A stretch of 64,000 bases of DNA, taken from contig JAUIAM010000006.1 in NCBI GenBank assembly GCA_030425485.1, positions 1 through 64,000 of the forward strand, read 5' to 3'. The position numbers and the translations under genes are program-made. The notes beneath the pieces are model-generated. The model was given only the letters and a program-made list of their open reading frames with translations. It had not been told where the DNA came from and ran no database searches. Positions 911 to 10,675 of this stretch are shown here, one piece after another (the first letter of the stretch is position 1; each line of letters starts with the position of its first letter). This DNA is from Verrucomicrobiia bacterium. GTDB taxonomy: Bacteria; Verrucomicrobiota; Verrucomicrobiia; Opitutales; Cerasicoccaceae.

Positions 911-1201
911 TTAGACCATGAGCAGGCCGTCTATATCGAAGCCCATGTCTTTGCCATGGTGCTCGACGCGGTGCTGCCAATTGTTCCCTAGATTATAAAT
1001 GCGGATGGAGTCAGTCTCACTGTCGATGATCTTGAGCAAACGTTGTTTGAGGGCAACATATTCGGCTGGGGCAACTTTGCACTCGAAAACTGAGTTCTGG
1101 ACGCGCTGTCCGTAGTCGAGGCAGGCCTTTGCAACATGGCGCAGGCGCCGCTGTCCGGCGGGCGTTGTGGTCGAAACATCATATGCAACGAGTAGGTACA
1201 T
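911..1201 (-). CDS. cas2: CRISPR-associated endonuclease Cas2
   Basis: A 96-residue Cas2 of normal family length. It begins MYLLVAYDVSTTT, with the conserved metal-binding aspartate (D8) at the end of the first beta strand, followed by the RLRHVAK helix and the QNSVFEC strand typical of the ferredoxin-like fold. Cas2 dimers bridge two Cas1 dimers in the spacer-integration complex. The gene is the last of the cas operon, 2 bp after cas1, and lies directly before the leader and array, so adaptation genes and their substrate are adjacent. Nothing looks truncated. Confidence 0.97.
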   Translation of the reverse strand: MYLLVAYDVSTTTPAGQRRLRHVAKACLDYGQRVQNSVFECKVAPAEYVALKQRLLKIIDSETDSIRIYNLGNNWQHRVEHHGKDMGFDIDGLLMV

Positions 1202-1203
1202 GG

Positions 1204-2238
1204 CTAGCGTGAGAGATAGGCAGGGTAGGTGTCGAGGTCTCCGCGCAAGTAGCGTGCGAGGAGGCGTGCCTGGATATGGGGCAGGAGACCATAGGTGATG
1301 CGCTCTTCGGTCAGTGGATGAACAAGCTGCTTTTGCTTACGCTCTTGCCACGCGTTTAGGACGAGTTTCCGCGCACTGGTCTTGAGGTATACGCCGCCGT
1401 TTTCCCGCGTTTCAAAATTTCTGGCTGAGATCTGTTGCCTGTTAATGAGTGTGAGTGCTGTCCTATCCGCTATGATGGCGCGAAACTCCTCCGCGAGGTC
1501 CAGGGCTAGGCAGGGTCTGCCGGGCCTGTCGCGGTGGAGAAATCCGCATTGTGCGTCCAGCCCACAGGATTCCAGTGCGCTTCGGCAGTCGTGGGTGAGG
1601 AGGGTGTAACAAAAGGACAGCAAGGCATTGACGGGGTCTTTCGGTGGCCTGCGCTCACGTGTGGTAAAGCTAAGTGCTGTCTGTGTCAGCAGGCTTGGGA
1701 AGGCTGCGAAGTACAGGCTGGCGGCTTCGCCCTCTGTGCCGCGTAGGCTGTCCAGATTGGGTGCGTGCTGAGCCATGCGTGCGCGGTGAGCCAACTGCTC
1801 GGCGGTGGTGATCAATATCTGTTGCCGTTCGTCCCCCTTATTGCCATGGTCTCTGGCACCGCGCATCAGCACCTGTCGTCCGTTGGCAATTTTTGCGGCG
1901 ACAATATTACGGGCGACATCTAGCGACGTGGTGGGATCGTCACTGGCCCGAAACTGGGACCGCCGCAGAAGGATGTTCCCGGTAGTGAAACCGCGTGTAG
2001 CCGCTTGAAATTTGCCATGCGGCGTGTGGAAGGATAAGGTGATGTCGGCCTCAGCGCACGCCGCCAGGAGTGATGCGCTGGCGGTACAGTCCCAGGCGAA
2101 GCAGCAGATGCCATCCAGATTATGCAGCGGTACCCGCAGCTTTGACTCGCCTTCGTGGCGTACCTCAATGGCGGCTCCGACTTTGTGCAGGTAGACATCC
2201 TCAAGCGTGATGTACAGGGTATTGAGATGGGTTTTCAT
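1204..2238 (-). CDS. cas1: CRISPR-associated endonuclease Cas1 (type I-C)
   Basis: A 344-residue Cas1 of the I-C subfamily, the integrase that inserts new spacers at the leader end of the array. The N-terminal beta domain starts MKTHLNTLYITLEDVYLHK. The alpha domain carries the metal triad: the glutamate in LRGTEGEAASLYF, the histidine in CGFLHRDRPGRP and the acidic cluster in LALDLAEEFR. Its start codon overlaps the cas4 stop by 4 bp (ATGA), consistent with translational coupling, and cas2 follows after 2 bp. Length and motifs are complete, so it should be active. Confidence 0.97.
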   Translation of the reverse strand: MKTHLNTLYITLEDVYLHKVGAAIEVRHEGESKLRVPLHNLDGICCFAWDCTASASLLAACAEADITLSFHTPHGKFQAATRGFTTGNILLRRSQFRASDDPTTSLDVARNIVAAKIANGRQVLMRGARDHGNKGDERQQILITTAEQLAHRARMAQHAPNLDSLRGTEGEAASLYFAAFPSLLTQTALSFTTRERRPPKDPVNALLSFCYTLLTHDCRSALESCGLDAQCGFLHRDRPGRPCLALDLAEEFRAIIADRTALTLINRQQISARNFETRENGGVYLKTSARKLVLNAWQERKQKQLVHPLTEERITYGLLPHIQARLLARYLRGDLDTYPAYLSR

Positions 2239-2927
2239 TCCACGAGCACACTTTCCAGAGAGCGGTTAAACCACTGACGTGTTCCGCGCCGAAGGCGTTG
2301 CGCGTTTGGCTGACACAGGCTGCGGAGTGAGCAGGGGTCGCAGAGCCTGGCTGAATACTCAGCAGCGGGGGTCATGCCCTGACTTATCATCTCGCGTACT
2401 GAGGCGGCAGCTTGCAGCGTGAGCATGCGTAAGTCGTGGTCGAGATGGACAGCATGGCGACGCTGGTTTTTTCCGTAAAAGAGAAAGCCGGTGTCGATGT
2501 CGCCGGGTGACAGGTCAAAGGTTTCCTCAAGACAAAGTGCCTGCCCGCAAAGTTGGATGTCGTCCGCGCGGTGCGCCTTGGGACGACCGCGCTTGTACTC
2601 GATGGGGACAATGCGTGTGCCCTGGTGGATTTCAACAACGTCGCATACGCCATGCAGGGCGTGTGTGGTAGAGCGCACCTCTAGCCCGCGTGTGATGCGT
2701 ACGCCGGGGCGGCTTTCACCCTGGCCTGCATGGGCTTTTTCGTGGAGCACATTTCCCTCCGCCGTGCTGTAGCTCTCGGCCCACTCCCGCTCCACGTGAA
2801 TCAGCGCACACTGCCGTGGGCAGTACAGGTAGTGCTGCAGTGCGGAGAGCGGGACTGAGAGGGGCGAGTCGATAGCGGATTTAAATGCGGCGGATAAGGG
2901 TGACGCCATCGGGGATGGCTTTTTCAT
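2235..2927 (-). CDS. cas4: CRISPR-associated exonuclease Cas4
   Basis: A 230-residue Cas4, a RecB-family nuclease that processes prespacers and selects the PAM for Cas1-Cas2. The iron-sulfur cysteines are visible: one in HYLYCPRQCAL near residue 34 and the others in LCDPCSLRSLCQP near the C-terminus. The nuclease core shows GVCDVVEI (metal Asp) and PIEYKRGR (E-x-K). The first ATG lies inside the 3' end of cas7, giving a 47-bp overlap. A second ATG seven codons later would also overlap, and no later ATG or GTG precedes the conserved SALQHYLYCP segment, so the overlap appears real. The stop overlaps cas1 by 4 bp. Confidence 0.95.
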   Translation of the reverse strand: MKKPSPMASPLSAAFKSAIDSPLSVPLSALQHYLYCPRQCALIHVEREWAESYSTAEGNVLHEKAHAGQGESRPGVRITRGLEVRSTTHALHGVCDVVEIHQGTRIVPIEYKRGRPKAHRADDIQLCGQALCLEETFDLSPGDIDTGFLFYGKNQRRHAVHLDHDLRMLTLQAAASVREMISQGMTPAAEYSARLCDPCSLRSLCQPNAQRLRRGTRQWFNRSLESVLVE

Positions 2928-3720
2928 CCACGGTCACGTCGTAATCGGAGAAATTGCGCGGGGCCTCCACACCCTCCTTGCGCTTGACCTGTACTAGGTC
3001 GAAGAGCTTTTGGGAAGGAGCTTTGCCCAGGGCATTGTCGTGCTTGAAGACGAGCAGTGCCTGGGGATTCATGCTGCCCGCCGGACGGGCGGCGGACTGG
3101 TCAAACTGGAAGGCATTTTCGAGCGCGGTAAAGAGCAGCTCGAGGTCGTCATCGTCGAAACCGGTCTGTTCCGCCAAGAAGGGGTTCACGAAGCCTTTGG
3201 CCAGATACAACCCGTAGGGGACGGTGAACTTGCGGCCCATGGTGCGCTCTTTCTCGATGTCTTTTTCGTTGGTGACAGAGGTGCGGGTGATGGCGTGCTC
3301 GCTGGTTACCACCGTGTCAATCGAGCGGGCAAAGGAAACTTGTACCGGACCGCGTACCTGCCCGCAGTTGACTTCGGTAGACATGACCGCACCAAAGGTG
3401 CGCACATCGTAGTAGTTCTTGCACATCCACTCGCGCGCCGCGTCTTTGACCGTCGCCTTGACCTTTTTCTCAGGCTTTTCGCCAATGGCTTCGTAGGCTT
3501 CTTTATGCTGGTTGTTGTGGACGGCACCTTCGACGAAGTAGATGCGGTTGTCGCTGGTTTGGGCGACGAAGTTGCGGATCTTGCGCTTGAGGCAAACGTC
3601 GGTCACGAGGCCTTGCCCGGTCTCTACATCGATGCGGGGCAGGTTGCCGGCGTCGGGGTCGCCATTGGGGTTGGCGTCCTGGCAATCAAAAAGGAAGAGG
3701 AAATCGTATCGGTTGTTCAT
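2881..3720 (-). CDS. cas7: Cascade backbone protein Cas7 (Csd2, type I-C)
   Basis: A 279-residue Cas7/Csd2, the subunit that polymerises along the crRNA spacer and forms the Cascade filament. It begins MNNRYDFLFLFDCQDANPNG, the typical Csd2 start with the DxxNGDPDAGNLPRID segment. The central region has the RTFGAVM and GPVQVSFARSID motifs of the family, and the length is normal. The gene starts 11 bp after cas8c and its 3' end overlaps the cas4 start, so effector and adaptation genes are in one transcript. In I-C systems Cas7, Cas5c and Cas8c (with an internally translated small subunit) make the complete surveillance complex. Confidence 0.96.
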   Translation of the reverse strand: MNNRYDFLFLFDCQDANPNGDPDAGNLPRIDVETGQGLVTDVCLKRKIRNFVAQTSDNRIYFVEGAVHNNQHKEAYEAIGEKPEKKVKATVKDAAREWMCKNYYDVRTFGAVMSTEVNCGQVRGPVQVSFARSIDTVVTSEHAITRTSVTNEKDIEKERTMGRKFTVPYGLYLAKGFVNPFLAEQTGFDDDDLELLFTALENAFQFDQSAARPAGSMNPQALLVFKHDNALGKAPSQKLFDLVQVKRKEGVEAPRNFSDYDVTVDEKAIPDGVTLIRRI

Positions 3721-3731
3721 GGGCGTTGAAT

Positions 3732-5564
3732 TTAGGCGGTTACAGGTTCAAGGGTTTCGGGGTCTTTGGCTTTGGCGGGAAAGAAGGCTTTGCGCTGGTG
3801 GTAGTAGCCGATGGCGAACTTCCCCTGGTCGAGGAGACTGAGCTGGGGGGGGTAGCCGTCTGCGCTAAAAAAACCAAAGATGTCCTGTACCAGTATTTCC
3901 CTTTTTCTTTTGAGTTTGAGTGCCAAATCGAAATCAATGCTCTTATTGTTTTTCGCTAATTCGTGAGGCATCTTTTCTAAATGGTGCTGATAGGTGCGCA
4001 GCAGCCTGGGAAAAACACTTCTGGGCGTGGCCGAAGCCGAGCTGTAGTAGCGGTCACGGATCGTGGCGTTGAGCCCCGGGAGCGCCTCTTCCTGGGTTTT
4101 TTCCAGAGCGGCGAAAAGCCTGCCGAGCAGGTAGGCCGGGTCGGTATTCTCAGTGTCTAGCATGATGGGTATGGGGAGTGAATGGTTGCGGACAAGGACG
4201 GCTTTTATCATGGCCGCACGTAAATAGTTGATCGTCCGGTCGGCGTGGATGCGCCGCAGGATGGCGGTGTAGAGCCCTTCGGGGTACTTGCCTCCGGTAA
4301 TGATGGAGCGGACTAGGGCTCCGCCGAGCAGGGGAGGGACATCGTCGCCGCGCCTTACCGTCTGGCTGAGGAACATCCACAGCGGCGGGAACTCCGGGTC
4401 GGGTCGGCGCTTGCCGCTGCTTCCGTCAAACTCGCGCACAATGGCGATGTGAGACTGGTGCTGGTGCAGCTTCTCCAGCAACTCGGCTACGGTAGAGCGA
4501 TGGAAAAAGCGGACGGAGATGCGGCCAGGATTAGGTTGCTCCAGTCCAAGAATGTAGAATGGAACGTCGGCTGAAGTGCTGTCCAATTCAAGGGCACCTC
4601 CGGTTTTAATGGCATGCAGCAGAGATTTAATACTCTCTAGTCGTGTTGCGTCCTGGCTTTCAGTATCGTTGGGAAGGTCACCGAATATATCTGCAAAGCA
4701 ACTTTCGAGGACCGTTTTTTCTTTTGTCCAGTAAGCGACTTTCGTCCCGGCCAAGGTAAAACAGTGATTCCTCTTTTGGGGTCCAATTGTCAGCGCATTC
4801 AGCGCTGTGCCGTAGCGAAAAGCTGCGTGCTTTGAAACCGGGCAGTTTTCAGTTGAGCTTTTTGCATAAGATTCGAAAGGGGTATTTGACTGAATGTTCA
4901 CCAAAGACGTAGAGCTTGCGAATCCCTTGATGTCAGGGTGGATGCTGCACAGTTCAGTGTTTTCTTCGCCCGTTATCAGGCACTGACCGAATTTTGCACT
5001 ACTATCAGGTTCGTTATAATGGCTTAACCACCATTTGCGGACTTGCTCGTCTTCGTGTACTTCCTTTCGTTCGCTTATGATTTGAAATACACCGAAATTA
5101 TCGAAATGCGGGTCATTTATGGCATACTTTTCAGAGAAGGATGCTGGTTGCCATGATTTCAGGAAGAGGCAAACGGCAGAGTACCACTTAGAGTTTATCT
5201 CTGACTCAAGCCCAATGTGAAAATCTCGAAATAGCTCGAATTTATCCTTCGCCAAGCCGCTTTTTCCTATACCAAGTATATACTCGGATTTATCGCACAT
5301 AAATTGAGGAAAGGCGGAGCTAGTTCGTTTCTTATGCGCTGGCACCAGCATCAGGCTTGGCTCAAAAATAACTTTTGGTGGATTCTTTCCTTTTGCGGGC
5401 AACGTGCGTTTCCGCCTCGCATCGATAATGTCGTGCAAGGTCCCGTCCGGCCTCAGGACGATTTTAAAGCTGACCTTTTGCGGGGAAAACCCGGGAGGGG
5501 CGATGCCGTAGGCGTCGTCCTGTGCCAGCCGGTCGTAGAGCTCGTAGAGGGTCTGGAGAATCAT
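3732..5564 (-). CDS. cas8c: Cascade large subunit Cas8c (Csd1)
   Basis: A 610-residue Cas8c/Csd1, the type I-C large subunit that recognises the PAM and recruits Cas3. The N-terminus ([17 protein letters not shown], then [19 protein letters not shown]) and the internal [20 protein letters not shown] segment are typical of the family. In characterised I-C systems the C-terminal part is also translated from an internal start to give Cas11c; this gene is long enough for that, but I cannot pick the internal start with confidence. It overlaps cas5c by 4 bp (ATGA) and precedes cas7 by 11 bp. The central part is more AT-rich than its neighbours. Confidence 0.95.
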
Positions 5565-6286
5565 GACGAGATGGGGAAGGGGAGTGCGGGGACGCTGATG
5601 ACTCCGTCGCGCATGATGGCGCGGAAAAAATGGGGTGTGGTGGACTTCACCTTTTTCGTGCGGCGGTCCTGGTCGAACTCGATGTCATGCAACATGTAGC
5701 CCAGGTCTTTTTCGCCCAGCAGCGAGGCGTCTGGCGCGGGGGTATTAGCCTCTTCCTCGATCAACTCGAAAGCAGCGGGAAATTCGCGGCAGCCGAAGTA
5801 GGGCTGTTGAAAGGCCTGTCCTTTTCGGGCCCGGCGTTTGAACATGTCCAGATGCTTGCCCACGGCTTCGCTCTCAGATACTTCATCGCCGCCTTTGTCT
5901 ACCCGGCGATCCAGCACGGCGATGTGCGCCCGGATGAGGTAGGCAACATCCGCCAGCAGCAGGGAGGCCCGCTGTTGGCGGTTTTCATCCACGGCCATGT
6001 GCGGGATGATGGACGAGTCTTTCATCCCGGCGTTGACCCCCGTTGCGCCTTTGACTGGGATCTTGGACGAGACTTCGTTGCGCCGGATGTTGGTAAAACG
6101 GATGGGCTTCAGCACTGTGATCTCGTCAATCAGCCAGCGTATCTGCGGCTTCCAGTAGATGGCCTCCAGAAGGCCACGGGCAGCAGAGGGCGTCATGGCA
6201 TCATAGGAGACGCGCTCCACCTTCATCTCAGGGCGGGAAAACAGGGCATAGTCGCCAGAAACATATAGGGTGACGCCGTAGCTCAT
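5561..6286 (-). CDS. cas5c: Cas5c (Cas5d), crRNA-processing Cascade subunit
   Basis: A 241-residue Cas5c. In type I-C, which lacks Cas6, this protein cuts the repeat at the base of its hairpin and stays bound to the 11-nt 5' handle. The family start [21 protein letters not shown] is present. Y44 and the adjacent pair K144-H145 ([12 protein letters not shown]) match the tyrosine and Lys-His residues known as catalytic in Cas5d. It is the first gene of the leftward cas5c-cas8c-cas7-cas4-cas1-cas2 operon, so its promoter must lie in 6287-6430, the same stretch that holds the crRNA-like target site described below. Confidence 0.96.
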
Positions 6287-6373
6287 TGTATTTTATTATG
6301 AATAGATATAAGAACAGACGCTCTTTCAATTAAAATTTCCATATCAAAAGCATTAAAATTTATACCATAGCCC

Positions 6374-6408
6374 TTCCTATGAATTCTTTTATAGATATTG
6401 ACATGTGG
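6374..6408 (+). promoter_or_regulatory. PAM plus partial protospacer matching the crRNA-like RNA
   Basis: TTC at 6374-6376, the type I-C PAM, is followed at 6377 by a sequence matching the spacer-like segment of the crRNA-like element (starting at 6630) at 15 of the first 19 positions. Mismatches are at positions 6, 9, 12 and 18. Positions 6, 12 and 18 are bases that type I Cascade flips out and does not read. Beyond position 19 the match fades, which should allow binding without full R-loop formation and Cas3 cutting. The TTGACA -35 of the rightward promoter (6398-6403) occupies protospacer positions 22-27. Confidence 0.8.
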
Positions 6409-6426
6409 GGCTTTTCTGATAATGTT
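6398..6426 (+). promoter_or_regulatory. Promoter of the candidate toxin (creT-like)
   Basis: A consensus -35 TTGACA at 6398-6403 is followed 16-17 bp later by a weak -10 in TGATAATGTT (6417-6426). It points rightwards, away from the cas operon and towards the small ORF at 6435/6531. The -35 lies within the Cascade target site, so a bound complex would block RNA polymerase. The -35 is clear; the exact -10 is not. Confidence 0.6.
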
Positions 6427-6530
6427 GTATAGAAATGAGCCGCTATACTCTAGAATTATTACCACCAGAAGCCCGCATTTGCGGACTCGGCTGTATAAAA
6501 AGTGGTCATGGTATTGTTGCTGGAGCCTTC

Positions 6531-6626
6531 ATGGATAGTTGGTGCGTGGCAGGGATTTGCGGATTTATTTTACTGGTTAGTCTACTGGCAGGGATTTTTT
6601 TGTCGCGAAAATCTCGCGCGGATTGA
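6531..6626 (+). CDS. Candidate creT-like toxin: 31-residue single-helix membrane peptide
   Basis: An ATG at 6531 preceded by GGAG (6522-6525) with 5-nt spacing opens a 31-residue ORF: a short polar start (MDSWCV), a hydrophobic helix of about 20 residues (GICGFILLVSLLAGIFL) and a positively charged end (SRKSRAD). This is the topology of small membrane toxins such as Hok and Fst, and the RKS after the helix recalls Hok. The same frame can start at ATG 6435 (63 residues) without a recognisable ribosome site. A 12-bp direct repeat (6547-6558 and 6586-6597), 39 bp apart, sits in the helix region. The stop codon lies inside the handle of the crRNA-like repeat. No known family is recognised; the toxin role is inferred from context only. 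Confidence 0.5.
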   Translation: MDSWCVAGICGFILLVSLLAGIFLSRKSRAD

Positions 6627-6683
6627 AACCTATGTATCCTGTTATACAGGTGTAAGAAGAGCCCCCGTTTGGGGGCTTTTTTT
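6602..6683 (+). ncRNA. crRNA-like regulatory RNA (creA-like): degenerate repeat, spacer-like segment, repeat-like terminator
   Basis: Positions 6602-6629 form a degenerate CRISPR repeat. The first 5 nt (GTCGC) and last 14 nt (GCGCGGATTGAAAC) are identical to the array repeat in crRNA orientation. The middle 12 nt are replaced by 9, which still make a hairpin (CGCGA-AAATC-TCGCG, 6604-6618) ending exactly 11 nt before the repeat end, so the Cas5c handle is kept. A spacer-like segment follows (6630-6657). The second hairpin (6660-6677, 7-bp stem, 4-nt loop) has the same stem and loop lengths as the array repeat and runs into seven Ts. It lies between cas3 and cas5c on the opposite strand. A weak promoter, TTGCGG-18-TCTACT, lies at 6557-6586. 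The layout matches CreA antitoxin RNAs of CreTA modules. Confidence 0.8.
6660..6683 (+). terminator. Intrinsic terminator formed by the second repeat-like hairpin
   Basis: A 7-bp stem (6660-6666 with 6671-6677) around a GTTT loop is followed by seven Ts on the plus strand, so it ends rightward transcription just before the 3' end of the convergent cas3. The stem and loop sizes match the CRISPR repeat hairpin, so the element may serve both as terminator and as a repeat mimic for Cas5c. Confidence 0.8.
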
Positions 6684-9051
6684 ATAGAGCTAAAAAACGG
6701 CTACTGGCGTACTCGTCGCTGAGGACGAGCCCGAAGTTTGCGTTGTAATTCGTGTCGTTGGAGATGAGTACGTGGAACTGTCCTTCGCGGAGATGCTCGA
6801 AGCTATTCCAGTTTTGCTGGATCAGTTTTGGGGAAATCTGGACCGTGTAGCGCTGGAGACCGCGGAGCAGGTGGCGATTGAGCGGGATGTGCTCGTTGCG
6901 CAGCTCATCGATCAGGGCCTCTGCCTTCTCGTCGAAGGGGATGATGACGGGCTGCTGCCAGTCATCGATGAGCTGAAACTTTTCCGCGATGGTTTTGAAA
7001 TTAAAAATGAAAGGATAGTGCTTATCGCCCAGCCGCATGTTTTCCCGGGCAAGAATGCACTGGCTGTCCCAGCGCTCTTTCTGCGAGTAATAGTAGAGGT
7101 CAAAATAGTGGCGTATGGCTTCCTCCCCGAGCAGGTCGTCGTGACATTCCATTACCCGGCTGGTGATTTGAGCGGTTTCTCTGAAGTAGGCTTCTGCCCG
7201 CCGTTCCGATTCTTCGTCACTTTCAGGAGTGAAAATATAGGTACTTCCCAAGCGTCCTAACTTCCCATTGCGATTGCAGCGTCCGGCGGCCTGGGCTATG
7301 GAGTCGAGGCCGGCGAGAGCGCGGTAGACCACCGGGAAGTCGACATCAACTCCGGCCTCGATCAACTGTGTGGACACGAGGCGGACCGGGAGCCCATCCC
7401 GCAGTCGCTCACGGACGGTCTGCAGGACCGTGCTGCGGTGCTCGGGGCACATGAGTGCGGAAAGGTGGTAGTTTCCGTCTTTAGGCCCTAGCATTTGGTA
7501 GAGCTGCTGGGCATGCTTTCTCCGGTTAACAATGCACAGCACCTGCTCTTCATCCGCCATTTTCTCGACCAGTTTTGAGTCTGCTAATTGACCGATATTT
7601 TGCAGCTCGACACGCTTGAGGGCATGGAAAAGGGCAGGGGGATTACGTATGATCTCGCGCAGGTTTTTCAGCCCGATGGGAAAGTAGGTTTCATCAAAGC
7701 GAATTGCAGGTTGCGTCGCCGTGCAAAGCACGCAGGTGGTGTTGTAGTTTTGCGCAAGTTCCTCCAGCACGCGCAGGCAGGGCGAGAGGAAATCGACGGG
7801 AAGGGTTTGCGCCTCGTCCAGAATAACGACCGCATTGGCGATATTGTGAACCTTGCGTGAGCGGGAGGTTTTGGCCGCGAACAACGATTCGTAGAATTGG
7901 ACTGCGGTGGTGATAATGATCGGGGCGTCCCAGTTTTCTGCTGCCAGCCGGGAGGTCGTGCTTTCGTCTTTGCCCTCGGGCGCGTAGGCGCTGTGGTGTT
8001 CGATCAGCGGGGTGAACGCCTCCGTCTCCAGTGGCTGCACAATCGCCCGCAGTACCTCGGCGTTCTGCTCAATGATCGAGGTGAACGGTACGACGCAGAT
8101 GATGCGCTGCTGGTCATGACGTATCGCATGCTCCAACGCGAAGGCCAGTGAAGAGAGCGTTTTTCCTCCCCCTGTGGGGACTGTCAGGGTGAACAAGCCG
8201 GGAGACTTGGCAGCGGCTTCACGGCAGTTGCGTACGACTTCAGCTCGCATATGGTTGACGGTATCATCAGGAGACGGAACGCCAAATCGAGCGATGTGCT
8301 GATCGAGTAATGCCTTGATGGCCTCTAGGGGCTTGGGCGGAGGTTGATTACGGGTACGGTATTTATCCACGCTCATAAACGACTCCGTTGCTAAAAAATC
8401 TGCGTCCACCAGGCAGGAGTAGAGCATCCTTACGAACAGACTGAGGGAAAATGTATGCTGGGAACTCGGGGAGCGCTTGAGGAATGCCGGGAGCGGCGGT
8501 ATGGGGAGATTGAGAAGCGCATCAGGGGCGTCGCCTGGCTTAAAGTCCAGTTGCTTGTCCAGTCGTCCTTTCTGGGTACCGGCAAGGGGATTTCCCGCCC
8601 CGGAATCCAATAAACCAGAGTGGTGGCCTGCGATGCCGAAAGCCAGTAGATGCCCAGAGACACCATGTGCCCGGACGGCGTGCTGCGCACCTGCCGTGGC
8701 ATGGTCAATTTTTTCAAGTACTTCCGCTTGGTGGGGATCGGCTTTGGATTCGAGGTATGCCTGCCACTTCGGGGCGAATTTTCCCAGATCGTGCCACCAC
8801 CCGATGAGCTCTCCCCACTCACTCAGTACAGATGCGGTTTTCTCATCCTCTACAACTAACCCGGCAGCAAACTCACCGCATAAGCATGCCACTTTGTTTA
8901 AATGCCCGTGTTGCGTGTGAAGTATTCGAGCAACTGCTCTATTACCGGAGTCATCCAAATGGCCGTTGCTGGTAAGCAGGGGCTCCCAATCTTCCTGTTG
9001 TAGTACTCTGCCTTCGGGGCTAACTTTCGTATGGGCGTAACAGGTAGTCAT
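6682..9051 (-). CDS. cas3: CRISPR-associated helicase-nuclease Cas3 (type I-C)
   Basis: Cas3 unwinds and degrades DNA after Cascade binding. The N-terminal HD nuclease shows WWHDLGKFAPKW and the HATAGAQHA and AGHHSG histidine motifs. The helicase follows, with VPTGGGKTLSSLAF (Walker A), VILDEAQTLP (motif II, DEAQ variant) and the C-terminal LIEAGVDVDFP and QAAGRCNRNG motifs. I start it at the ATG beginning MTTCYAHTKVSPEG (789 residues), because I-C Cas3 proteins begin near this YAHT segment. ATGs at 9060 and 9072 are alternatives, and the upstream extension to 9180 looks non-coding. Cas3 is usually directly next to cas5c; here a 395-bp cassette on the opposite strand separates them. Confidence 0.95.
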   Translation of the reverse strand: MTTCYAHTKVSPEGRVLQQEDWEPLLTSNGHLDDSGNRAVARILHTQHGHLNKVACLCGEFAAGLVVEDEKTASVLSEWGELIGWWHDLGKFAPKWQAYLESKADPHQAEVLEKIDHATAGAQHAVRAHGVSGHLLAFGIAGHHSGLLDSGAGNPLAGTQKGRLDKQLDFKPGDAPDALLNLPIPPLPAFLKRSPSSQHTFSLSLFVRMLYSCLVDADFLATESFMSVDKYRTRNQPPPKPLEAIKALLDQHIARFGVPSPDDTVNHMRAEVVRNCREAAAKSPGLFTLTVPTGGGKTLSSLAFALEHAIRHDQQRIICVVPFTSIIEQNAEVLRAIVQPLETEAFTPLIEHHSAYAPEGKDESTTSRLAAENWDAPIIITTAVQFYESLFAAKTSRSRKVHNIANAVVILDEAQTLPVDFLSPCLRVLEELAQNYNTTCVLCTATQPAIRFDETYFPIGLKNLREIIRNPPALFHALKRVELQNIGQLADSKLVEKMADEEQVLCIVNRRKHAQQLYQMLGPKDGNYHLSALMCPEHRSTVLQTVRERLRDGLPVRLVSTQLIEAGVDVDFPVVYRALAGLDSIAQAAGRCNRNGKLGRLGSTYIFTPESDEESERRAEAYFRETAQITSRVMECHDDLLGEEAIRHYFDLYYYSQKERWDSQCILARENMRLGDKHYPFIFNFKTIAEKFQLIDDWQQPVIIPFDEKAEALIDELRNEHIPLNRHLLRGLQRYTVQISPKLIQQNWNSFEHLREGQFHVLISNDTNYNANFGLVLSDEYASSRFLAL

Positions 9052-9328
9052 GTCGGGCATGTCGATGGTCATTACATACCGGCTGTATAGAAGTAAAGCG
9101 ACACTATAGTGAGAAAGGCTACAGTTTAGTATCGATTCGGCGGGTTTTACGGCAGAGGAAGCGATTGAGACGAATATCACTTGCTATGCGGCAACGCAGC
9201 ACCTGAACAAGGGCTTCAGCATAAAGCCCATCATCGATAAGGATGGCAACACGCGCCAGCGAAAGCTCCATAGTGGTTATGCTCCGACTTTTGAGCAACT
9301 GGCGCAATATCCCGACCGCACTTGGGAG

Positions 9329-10675
9329 ATGGCCCGGGAACGTGATTTGCTCGGTACCTGTGACCCTGAATATTGGGGGTCCGGCCCAAAACGCCAGACG
9401 AAGCATCCCGCCAGAAGCTGGATTGCTGGCTTGCCTCGTTTAATCTTTCTGAGCGACATGGGGGACGCTTTCTCGCGGCCAGCAGATTTCCCATACCTTG
9501 AGGAGCATGTGATGCCTGCCATCAGGTCAAAAGAAGGCACACAACACCTTTGGCTATGGCTGACGAAGAGACCGCACCATATGCTGAAATTCGCTGAGAG
9601 GATCGGCGGGCTCCCTGACAATGTCTGCGCCATGACCACATTAACCGGCGCGAATGCAGCCAATCTGAAACGTTTAGAGCAACTGCGAAAAGTTCCTGCC
9701 TCGTGCAGAGGGTTGTCCATTGAGCCGCTCTGGGAATCGATACCTGGAAGCAAGCTCAATTTGGAGGGTATTGATTGGGTAATTGCAGGCGGCGAGTCAG
9801 GCAGTGGGGCATATGTGCGTACGTTCGATGTCGAGTGGGCGCGTCAACTGCGTGACCACTGCCGAGAGAGCGGCGTTGCCTTTTTCATGAAGCAAATGGG
9901 GCGGCACCCCGTCGATGCCTCCGGAACGGCCATCAAGCTCAAGGATTCGCATGGCGGGAATTGGGATGAGTGGGAGGATGCGGGATTGTCCGATCTGAAG
10001 CTGAGAGAATTTCCAGAGTACTTTCACCAATACCGCAAAGCTGAGTTACCCGCAAAGCTGCGGCCAGACCGTCGACCACCCTATGTGCAGAAGCTAGACA
10101 TTGTTCAAGACAGCAAACTGAGTCCGGAGGAGCGTCGGCAGTACCGCGAGCTCAAAGGGCGTGTCAACAAGGCGGCGCGATACCTGCTTGATGCGAATTT
10201 GGCCTTGCTCGAAATCCGGGATCAGCGCCTGTATCGCGAAGATTTTTCTACCTTTGAAGCCTATTGCCAGTCGGTGCACGACTTTTCACGTCAATACGCC
10301 AGCAACCTCATCCAAGCCGGTAAAACCTACCTCGATTTGTCAACTTTAGTTGACAAAAACCAAGGCGATAAAGCGGTCATTCCTCGCAAGGAATCTCAAC
10401 TAAGGGAGTTGCGCCGACTCAAGGATCCAGAGGCGGAATACGAGGTGCTGGTTGAACTTCAAAATGGCGACATGGATGGTGCATTAACCGTGGGCCGAAT
10501 TCATGATGCTGTGCAGCGACGCCTCGATCAGAAGCCCGCTAATCCGCGTCCGCAGAGTCCGAGCATGCGCCTCCAATCTGCTCGAGAATTATTGCCCCGA
10601 TTGGAGCATGCTATCGAGAGGGGCGAAGATTGGCAGTCTTGCCTACAGGAAATTCGCGCTCTGCTCGGAGAATAG
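9329..10675 (+). CDS. DUF5131 (phage Gp37/Gp68-like) protein with extra C-terminal domain, N-terminus apparently missing
   Basis: The first part shows the DUF5131/Gp37-Gp68 core: PRLIFLSDMGDAF, HLWLWLTKRPHHML, GLSIEPLWESI, IDWVIAGGESGSGA and GVAFFMKQMGRHP. These are radical-SAM-like proteins of phage and mobile elements with unknown substrate. The second part (from about residue 240) resembles phage/plasmid DNA-binding regions (FEAYCQSVHDFSRQYASNLIQAG). Coding sequence clearly continues upstream in frame to about 9112 (including AEEAIETNITCYAATQ) but meets stop codons there with no start codon, so the 5' end with the expected cysteine cluster is lost. The break lies just outside the cas3 start. 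It may be a remnant or start from ATG 9329. Confidence 0.75.
   Translation: MARERDLLGTCDPEYWGSGPKRQTKHPARSWIAGLPRLIFLSDMGDAFSRPADFPYLEEHVMPAIRSKEGTQHLWLWLTKRPHHMLKFAERIGGLPDNVCAMTTLTGANAANLKRLEQLRKVPASCRGLSIEPLWESIPGSKLNLEGIDWVIAGGESGSGAYVRTFDVEWARQLRDHCRESGVAFFMKQMGRHPVDASGTAIKLKDSHGGNWDEWEDAGLSDLKLREFPEYFHQYRKAELPAKLRPDRRPPYVQKLDIVQDSKLSPEERRQYRELKGRVNKAARYLLDANLALLEIRDQRLYREDFSTFEAYCQSVHDFSRQYASNLIQAGKTYLDLSTLVDKNQGDKAVIPRKESQLRELRRLKDPEAEYEVLVELQNGDMDGALTVGRIHDAVQRRLDQKPANPRPQSPSMRLQSARELLPRLEHAIERGEDWQSCLQEIRALLGE

Follow-up and report, generated by a model that had tools for sequence, protein, structure and literature searches.

Type I-C Locus with a Solitary Degenerate Repeat

The first 64,000 nucleotides (the window) of contig JAUIAM010000006.1, from the Verrucomicrobiia bacterium assembly GCA_030425485.1 (Cerasicoccaceae), carry a type I-C CRISPR (clustered regularly interspaced short palindromic repeats) locus in which a single degenerate copy of the array repeat lies, together with a small open reading frame (ORF), between cas5c and cas3. 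The array stands at the contig start (32–722, minus strand; 11 repeats of 31 nt each) and is followed by cas2, cas1c, cas4, cas7c/csd2, and cas8c/csd1 (911–5564), by cas5c (5561–6286; NCBIfam TIGR01876), encoding the type I-C CRISPR RNA (crRNA)-processing subunit, and by cas3 (6682–9180; start codon not settled), all on the minus strand. The NCBIfam models matched by cas1, cas5, cas7, and cas8 are those of type I-C, and cas5c, cas8c/csd1, and cas7c/csd2 are all present, which assigns the system to this type.

The degenerate repeat with its guide (together, the element) and the small ORF occupy the plus strand inside the 395-nt cas5c-cas3 gap. Read 5' to 3', this strand contains a TTC protospacer-adjacent motif (PAM; 6374–6376), the target, or protospacer, of the guide (6377–6393), a candidate promoter read by eye (TTGACA-16 nt-TAATGT, 6398–6425), an ORF for a 63-amino acid membrane protein (P0001; 6435–6626) that we propose as a toxin, the degenerate repeat (6602–6629), and the guide (6630–6660). 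A terminator-like hairpin found by folding (GCCCCC-GTTT-GGGGGC, then seven T; 6661–6683) takes the place of a second repeat.

The array repeat reads GTCGCCCCCACACGGGGGCGCGGATTGAAAC on the minus strand, and positions 6602–6629 of the plus strand read GTCGCGAAAATCTCGCGCGGATTGAAAC. As a preliminary description made from the sequence alone had claimed, the ends of the array repeat are untouched in this copy (5 + 14 bases, thus 19 of 28, are identical), 12 bases of its middle have been exchanged for 9 different ones, and the replacement forms a new 5-bp stem. RNAfold pairs 6604–6608 with 6614–6618 around a loop of 5 (-6.7 kcal/mol for the 28-nt repeat). The distance from this stem to the end of the repeat is 11 nt, which is also the distance in the array repeat. 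The handle that remains after cutting by Cas5c is 11 nt long and would here be 6619–6629. In the cryo-electron microscopy structure of a type I-C complex, the 5' handle (nucleotides U1–G12) is described as clamped by Cas5c and Cas7 (PMC7684278). The 14-mer GCGCGGATTGAAAC occurs 31 times in the assembly (reversed control, 0): 30 copies are array-spaced on one strand of two contigs (19 and 11), and the one at the element, on the other strand, is the single occurrence of the repeat end outside such runs.

Guide and Target

The best TTC-flanked match to the guide in the window is the site at 6377 (plus strand), and no site with any PAM scores higher. The target pairs with guide positions 1–5, 7, 8, 10, 11, and 13–17, that is, with 14 of the 15 scored positions (1–5, 7–11, 13–17), including all seven seed positions (1–5, 7, 8), while position 6 is mismatched. 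None of 20,000 shuffled guides reached this score within 1500 nt and none of 1000 did in the whole window; within the gap alone, 1 of 20,000 reached it when no PAM was demanded and none when TTC was. Across the organism's own genome, the target pattern is found with 0 mismatches at 6377, with 2 at the element itself, and with 3 at three other places (reversed control, seven places).

Two features that define CreTA and CrePA systems are therefore found here: a degenerate repeat in which the effector-binding 5' handle is kept, and a limited, seed-centred match to a PAM-flanked site upstream of a partner gene, at what we presume to be its promoter. In another type I-C system the PAM is likewise TTC, and interference is reported to require 27 bp of match (PMC8406640), so a 17-nt match should permit binding without destruction. 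With a guide downstream of the repeat, a target for it, a coding gene lying between the two, and a hairpin resembling a terminator, the transcript of this region is a putative crRNA-like repressor RNA.

The preliminary description did not reach this role. It overlooked that 6602–6626 is also the 3' end of the 63-amino acid ORF and that the repeat is followed by a guide whose target lies 253 nt upstream.

Small Membrane Protein ORF

The start codon of P0001 lies 58 nt from the target start and its stop codon (6624–6626) falls inside the 5' handle; the interval from target to repeat measures 225 nt. A 62–63-amino acid membrane protein fills the same slot in the window and in a locus of the same genus, L010. 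Of 59 codons compared between the two ORFs, the first position is identical in 31, the second in 35, and the third in 22, and the annotated frame has a BLOSUM score of 91, compared with 46 for the next best frame (on the opposite strand) and -9 +- 19 for column shuffles, of which 0 of 2000 reached it. On this comparison, the ORF very probably encodes a real protein.

AlphaFold2 models P0001 as a two-helix hairpin (mean predicted local distance difference test score 80.6, from a two-sequence alignment), with no Foldseek match in the PDB at E <= 0.001. Pfam returned nothing for the protein above its curated cut-off and NCBIfam nothing at E <= 0.001, and KilA-N was not found in it. At the family level it is present in 2 of 10 genomes, the two that have cas5c. 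A search of its own genome returned a second match only at E 0.02, inside a long frame, and a search of 273 genomes of the same order returned, beyond these two, weak scattered matches (best E 0.0026).

Recurrence across Type I-C Loci

Loci with cas5c were collected from the same order (18 of 273 genomes with a match), from the same phylum (85 of 387 genomes with a match, at most 30 loci taken), and from named loci (the best 80 of 574 taken), and are numbered here with the prefix L. Scanning them for solitary handles gave 42 distinct solitary GGATTGAAA sites, which were split afterwards into 23 elements (guide-target score at least 19, or 18 with PAM TTC), 16 chance sites, and three sites resembling array repeats that were dropped (L070:18708, L037:12047, and L029:17532).

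A score of at least 20 was obtained at 17 of the 42 sites, all of which outscore their 60 shuffled guides, and 14 of these 17 have a TTC PAM, although the PAM was not scored; non-TTC PAMs are GTC in L125, GCT in L027, and GTT in L023. All 60 shuffles are beaten by 19 of the 23 elements; the element of L034 was reached by 1, those of L092 and L103 by 3, and that of L061 by 10. The element of L027, whose cas5 is distantly related (29% identity), could instead be a repeat of an array.

This first scoring left out guide positions 6, 12, and 18, so the contrast seen at them is partly built in. In a control that weighted all 18 guide positions equally and ignored the PAM, 20 of the 23 elements returned the same site, and the best sites of 17 of the 23 have TTC. 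At these 17 TTC sites, positions 6, 12, and 18 match in only 1, 3, and 3, compared with 13–17 at the other positions, and leaving out other phases instead lowers the match (0.80–0.82 vs 0.91). Cascade does not pair at every sixth position. The sparing of every sixth base fits this property and argues against both chance and mere duplication. L119, L103, and L061 have a different best site under equal weighting and hence count as three weak elements.

The guides also covary with their targets: 223 of 268 pairwise guide differences among eight loci are mirrored in the targets, which had themselves been chosen as best matches. A hairpin follows the guide in 8 of 8 guides examined. A looser handle search adds six elements from Pseudomonadota (L058, L059, L065, L066, L067, and L089), which were found by demanding TTC, so that the PAM adds no separate support in their case; the weakest of them is L059, with 12 of 15 positions matched. 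Gaps under 120 nt make up 61 of 118, a count that includes duplicates of some loci.

Conservation of the stem among homologous loci, the check proposed in the preliminary description, is borne out. With G-T pairs counted, 18 of the 23 solitary type I-C elements, that of the window included, have a stem of at least 5 bp whose end falls exactly 11 nt short of the repeat end, compared with 2 of the 16 chance GGATTGAAA sites; the stem is shorter than 5 bp at this anchor in L104, L052, L034, L119, and L103. Moving the anchor by -1 still leaves 14 of the 23 elements, and by +1 only 5. The arms and loops vary from locus to locus (CGTTTTC/GAAAACG in L013, CGCGCGA/TCGTGCG in L010), indicating that the stem persists through changes in its sequence. 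The comparison of loci, in which handle and stem position are retained, thus sustains the earlier interpretation of the repeat in part. That it is under selection for recognition or processing by Cas5c, with the remainder free to diverge, is well supported at the sequence level. For degenerated creA repeats, the published explanation is that they avoid recombination with the array (PMC9458426).

Putatively Guarded Genes in Related Loci

Six loci from Verrucomicrobiota (L013, L015, L017, L039, L052, and L104) contain a different partner gene. Their targets lie between a FitA-like ribbon-helix-helix (RHH) gene and a PIN/VapC gene, and the element lies after vapC. All 12 RHH and PIN proteins pass the Pfam cut-offs, and the PIN acidic residues D5, E42, D96, and D114 are invariant in all six VapC proteins. 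From target to ATG these loci measure 57–62 nt in five of six cases and 29 nt in L017, with an internal ATG chosen by us in L015 and L052; the corresponding distance in the window is 58 nt.

The RHH antitoxin gene of these six loci is divergent from cas5c across a short gap, and RHH could also bind the cas promoter. In L022 (L022:1-861), from the same genus as L017, we observed cas5c and an orphan FitA-like antitoxin gene with the start of cas3 close behind. It appears from the sequence that vapC, the element, and most of cas3 have been deleted; the contig ends within cas5c. Loss of vapC together with the element would fit a toxin that is unable to persist once its CRISPR guard is gone.

Small proteins occupy the slot elsewhere. 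In the six Pseudomonadota loci of the looser search, the sequence from target to element codes for a small protein that has a hydrophobic stretch, and L103, from a member of the Desulfobulbaceae, has the same arrangement with a weaker guide-target pair. The ORFs of these seven loci encode 35–62 amino acids, lie in the cas3-cas5 gap, end at or in the degenerate repeat, and have a TTC target upstream. Start codons were chosen inside longer frames in L058, L059, L067, and L089, as in L015 and L052.

Among 13 target-element intervals hand-picked for length (194–289 nt; window and L010 among them), 8 contain a sense ORF with a strong transmembrane (TM) segment, compared with 0.37 expected from dinucleotide shuffles; without the window and L010 the count is 6 of 11 against 0.24 expected. 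The intervals of L048, L075, L092, and L097 contain no such TM ORF, and that of L089 falls below the threshold (1.49 vs 1.8). The L065 and L066 proteins are 42% identical and those of L103 and L066 30%, while the remaining small proteins differ. When an alignment of four of these proteins, from Pseudomonadota and Desulfobulbaceae, was searched against 369 genomes of the same class, taken irrespective of whether they hold a type I-C locus, no further clear copy appeared, the one match beyond the query genome being weak (E 4.7e-4) and inside a 726-amino acid frame. The L066 protein alone found nothing in plasmids, and neither it nor the L089 protein has a Pfam match. The small-ORF module is possibly widespread in Pseudomonadota and Desulfobacterota.

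On the far side of cas3 in the window, a 448-amino acid plus-strand ORF (9329–10675) lies upstream of this gene and matches Pfam DUF5131 (E 4e-35), which we take to be a phage Gp37/Gp68-like family.

Proposed Mechanism

The module is likely related to CreTA/CrePA but of type I-C, with a crRNA-like antitoxin that would steer Cascade to repress a protein toxin. The handle, the stem, the recurring relation of guide, target, and PAM, the coding ORF, and the PIN/VapC genes in the same slot of relatives are the sequence support for this reading. From these features we infer the transcription, processing, repression, toxicity, and anti-CRISPR trigger of the module as follows. The element would be the antitoxin half of a CRISPR-regulated toxin-antitoxin pair encoded in the cas5c-cas3 gap, on the strand opposite to these genes. 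A single transcript, from about 6435 to 6683, would carry the membrane protein ORF, the degenerate repeat, the guide, and the terminator. Cas5c would cut 3' of the hairpin, after 6618, to give an RNA with an 11-nt handle that loads into type I-C Cascade and directs it to the TTC-flanked site at 6377. With pairing limited to the first ~17 nt of the guide, the complex would bind without triggering Cas3 and block the promoter of the small ORF. If Cascade disappeared or were blocked, as by an anti-CRISPR, the ORF would be derepressed and the membrane protein would be made and would harm or arrest the cell.

We put forward more tentatively, as a suggestion that may well fail, that these loci represent a swappable type I-C guard cassette present in several phyla, its protein toxin being either a small membrane protein or PIN/VapC, with a second lock by Cas5c in some of them. 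In releasing the guide, Cas5c would cut the toxin mRNA upstream of its stop codon, so that the processed transcript would be a dead message. The stop codon of the window (6624–6626) lies 3' of the cut after 6618, so processing would strip it from the toxin message. The window shares with L059, L067, and L089 a stop codon that falls within the handle, 3' of the predicted cut, whereas the stop codons of L010, L058, L065, L066, and L103 lie 5' of it. Loss or inhibition of either Cas5c or Cascade would then free the toxin.

Several observations weigh against the toxin-antitoxin reading. With the target of the window 91 nt upstream of cas5c, and one TTC target of L010 31 nt upstream of the cas5c there, the cas operon may be repressed jointly with the small ORF or in its place. 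The label of toxin for a membrane protein that has neither a family match nor a convincing structural one rests on analogy, and this version of the protein was found in two genomes only. A promoter scan of 6200–6760 returned two plus-strand promoter-like sites (shuffle mean 1.1), neither at 6398–6425. A terminator scan of the same region listed none, perhaps because the pairing of the hairpin runs into the T run. As the scans call neither site, the promoter and terminator are proposed from sequence reading and folding.

Alternative Explanations

The main rival is that the element is a CreR, whose guide would autorepress the cas5-cas8-cas7-cas4-cas1-cas2 operon, the small ORF not being a toxin. 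The distances to cas5c given above are as this explanation would have them, and L023 and, less surely, L038, L053, L074, L086, L088, and L034 resemble type I-C CreR elements. However, the small ORF of the window is under coding selection, the element lies on the strand opposite to cas, and the spacing from target to ATG equals that of most vapC loci, where cas5c is about 320–365 nt from the target. We therefore regard autorepression by itself as unlikely, though it is the alternative to be taken most seriously.

In L010 one guide has two TTC targets (2248 and 2307 of the reverse complement). The first lies 82 nt before the ATG and 31 nt from cas5c, the second 23 nt before the ATG and 90 nt from cas5c; these tandem targets suggest joint control of the cas operon and the small gene. 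The loci L023, L038, L053, L074, L086, L088, and L034 have a guide-target pair with no toxin-like ORF between its members and a target near the start of a cas gene, which in L088 (Pelosinus) and L034 is cas3; the GTT of L023 is its apparent PAM.

A CreTA system proper, in which the repressed product would be a toxic RNA, is improbable. RNA toxins are reported for the type I-B systems studied (PMC8501985), and an interval of 225 nt between target and repeat is short, but the conservation of the ORF is specific to the protein frame, and related modules encode PIN or other TM proteins.

Racrs, phage-derived crRNA mimics that inhibit Cascade, are described as solitary repeats of viral genomes (PMC10651486), and a single repeat recalls them; the element, however, lies inside a cas locus with a matching guide and target, other genomes have similar elements between cas3 and cas5, no mobile-element setting was found for it, and a scan of viral contigs confirmed no relative of P0001, so this origin is very improbable. 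Least credible of all is the view that the repeat has decayed from an array or is left over from a second one, which would account for the single copy and altered middle but not for the guide-target pair, the handle and stem position kept across loci, or the hairpin after each of the 8 guides examined.

Relation to Known Systems and Significance

Of the known systems, CreTA (type I-B in haloarchaea, type I-F in Acinetobacter) is described with a degenerate repeat whose Cas5-binding end is conserved (PMC8501985, PMC9458426, PMC10097628) and a guide beside the repressed gene. The CreA of type I-B pairs at positions 1–5 and 7–11 beside TTC, and the one-repeat form of Haloarcula hispanica ends at a terminator, which replaces the second repeat (PMC8501985). 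The window system differs in being type I-C, with Cas5c as the processing enzyme, in that it would guard a protein rather than an RNA, and in pairing that reaches positions 13–17. In CrePA, a crRNA-like RNA is described as directing the effector to repress a protein toxin gene, which is freed when the effector is inhibited (PMC12737573). The toxin there is KilA-N, in contrast to the small membrane protein of the window and the PIN/VapC of its relatives, and in the account given in that review neither a type I-C setting nor a gene overlapping the repeat is met.

CreR elements, listed for types I-B, I-E, and V-A (PMC13131331), are likewise solitary mini-CRISPRs that are partly complementary to a cas-locus promoter, but the target spacing and partner gene of the window suggest that the small ORF is regulated, either in place of the cas operon or along with it. 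With FitAB/VapBC the six related loci share the pair of FitA-like RHH and PIN proteins; they differ in that a guide RNA target sits between the antitoxin and toxin genes, and the gap of the window contains no vapBC.

A search of titles and abstract openings found no type I-C report in which a crRNA-like RNA controls VapC or a small membrane protein; subscription journals were thinly covered, so that earlier publication is possible. The review (PMC12737573) asks whether CreTA- or CrePA-like systems extend to further CRISPR types and further toxin targets. The combination of a solitary handle, a TTC site, and a mismatch at every sixth base provides a sequence rule by which more such modules may be found. 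If our reading of the module is correct, anti-CRISPRs directed against type I-C systems would trigger death or arrest in the hosts that carry it.
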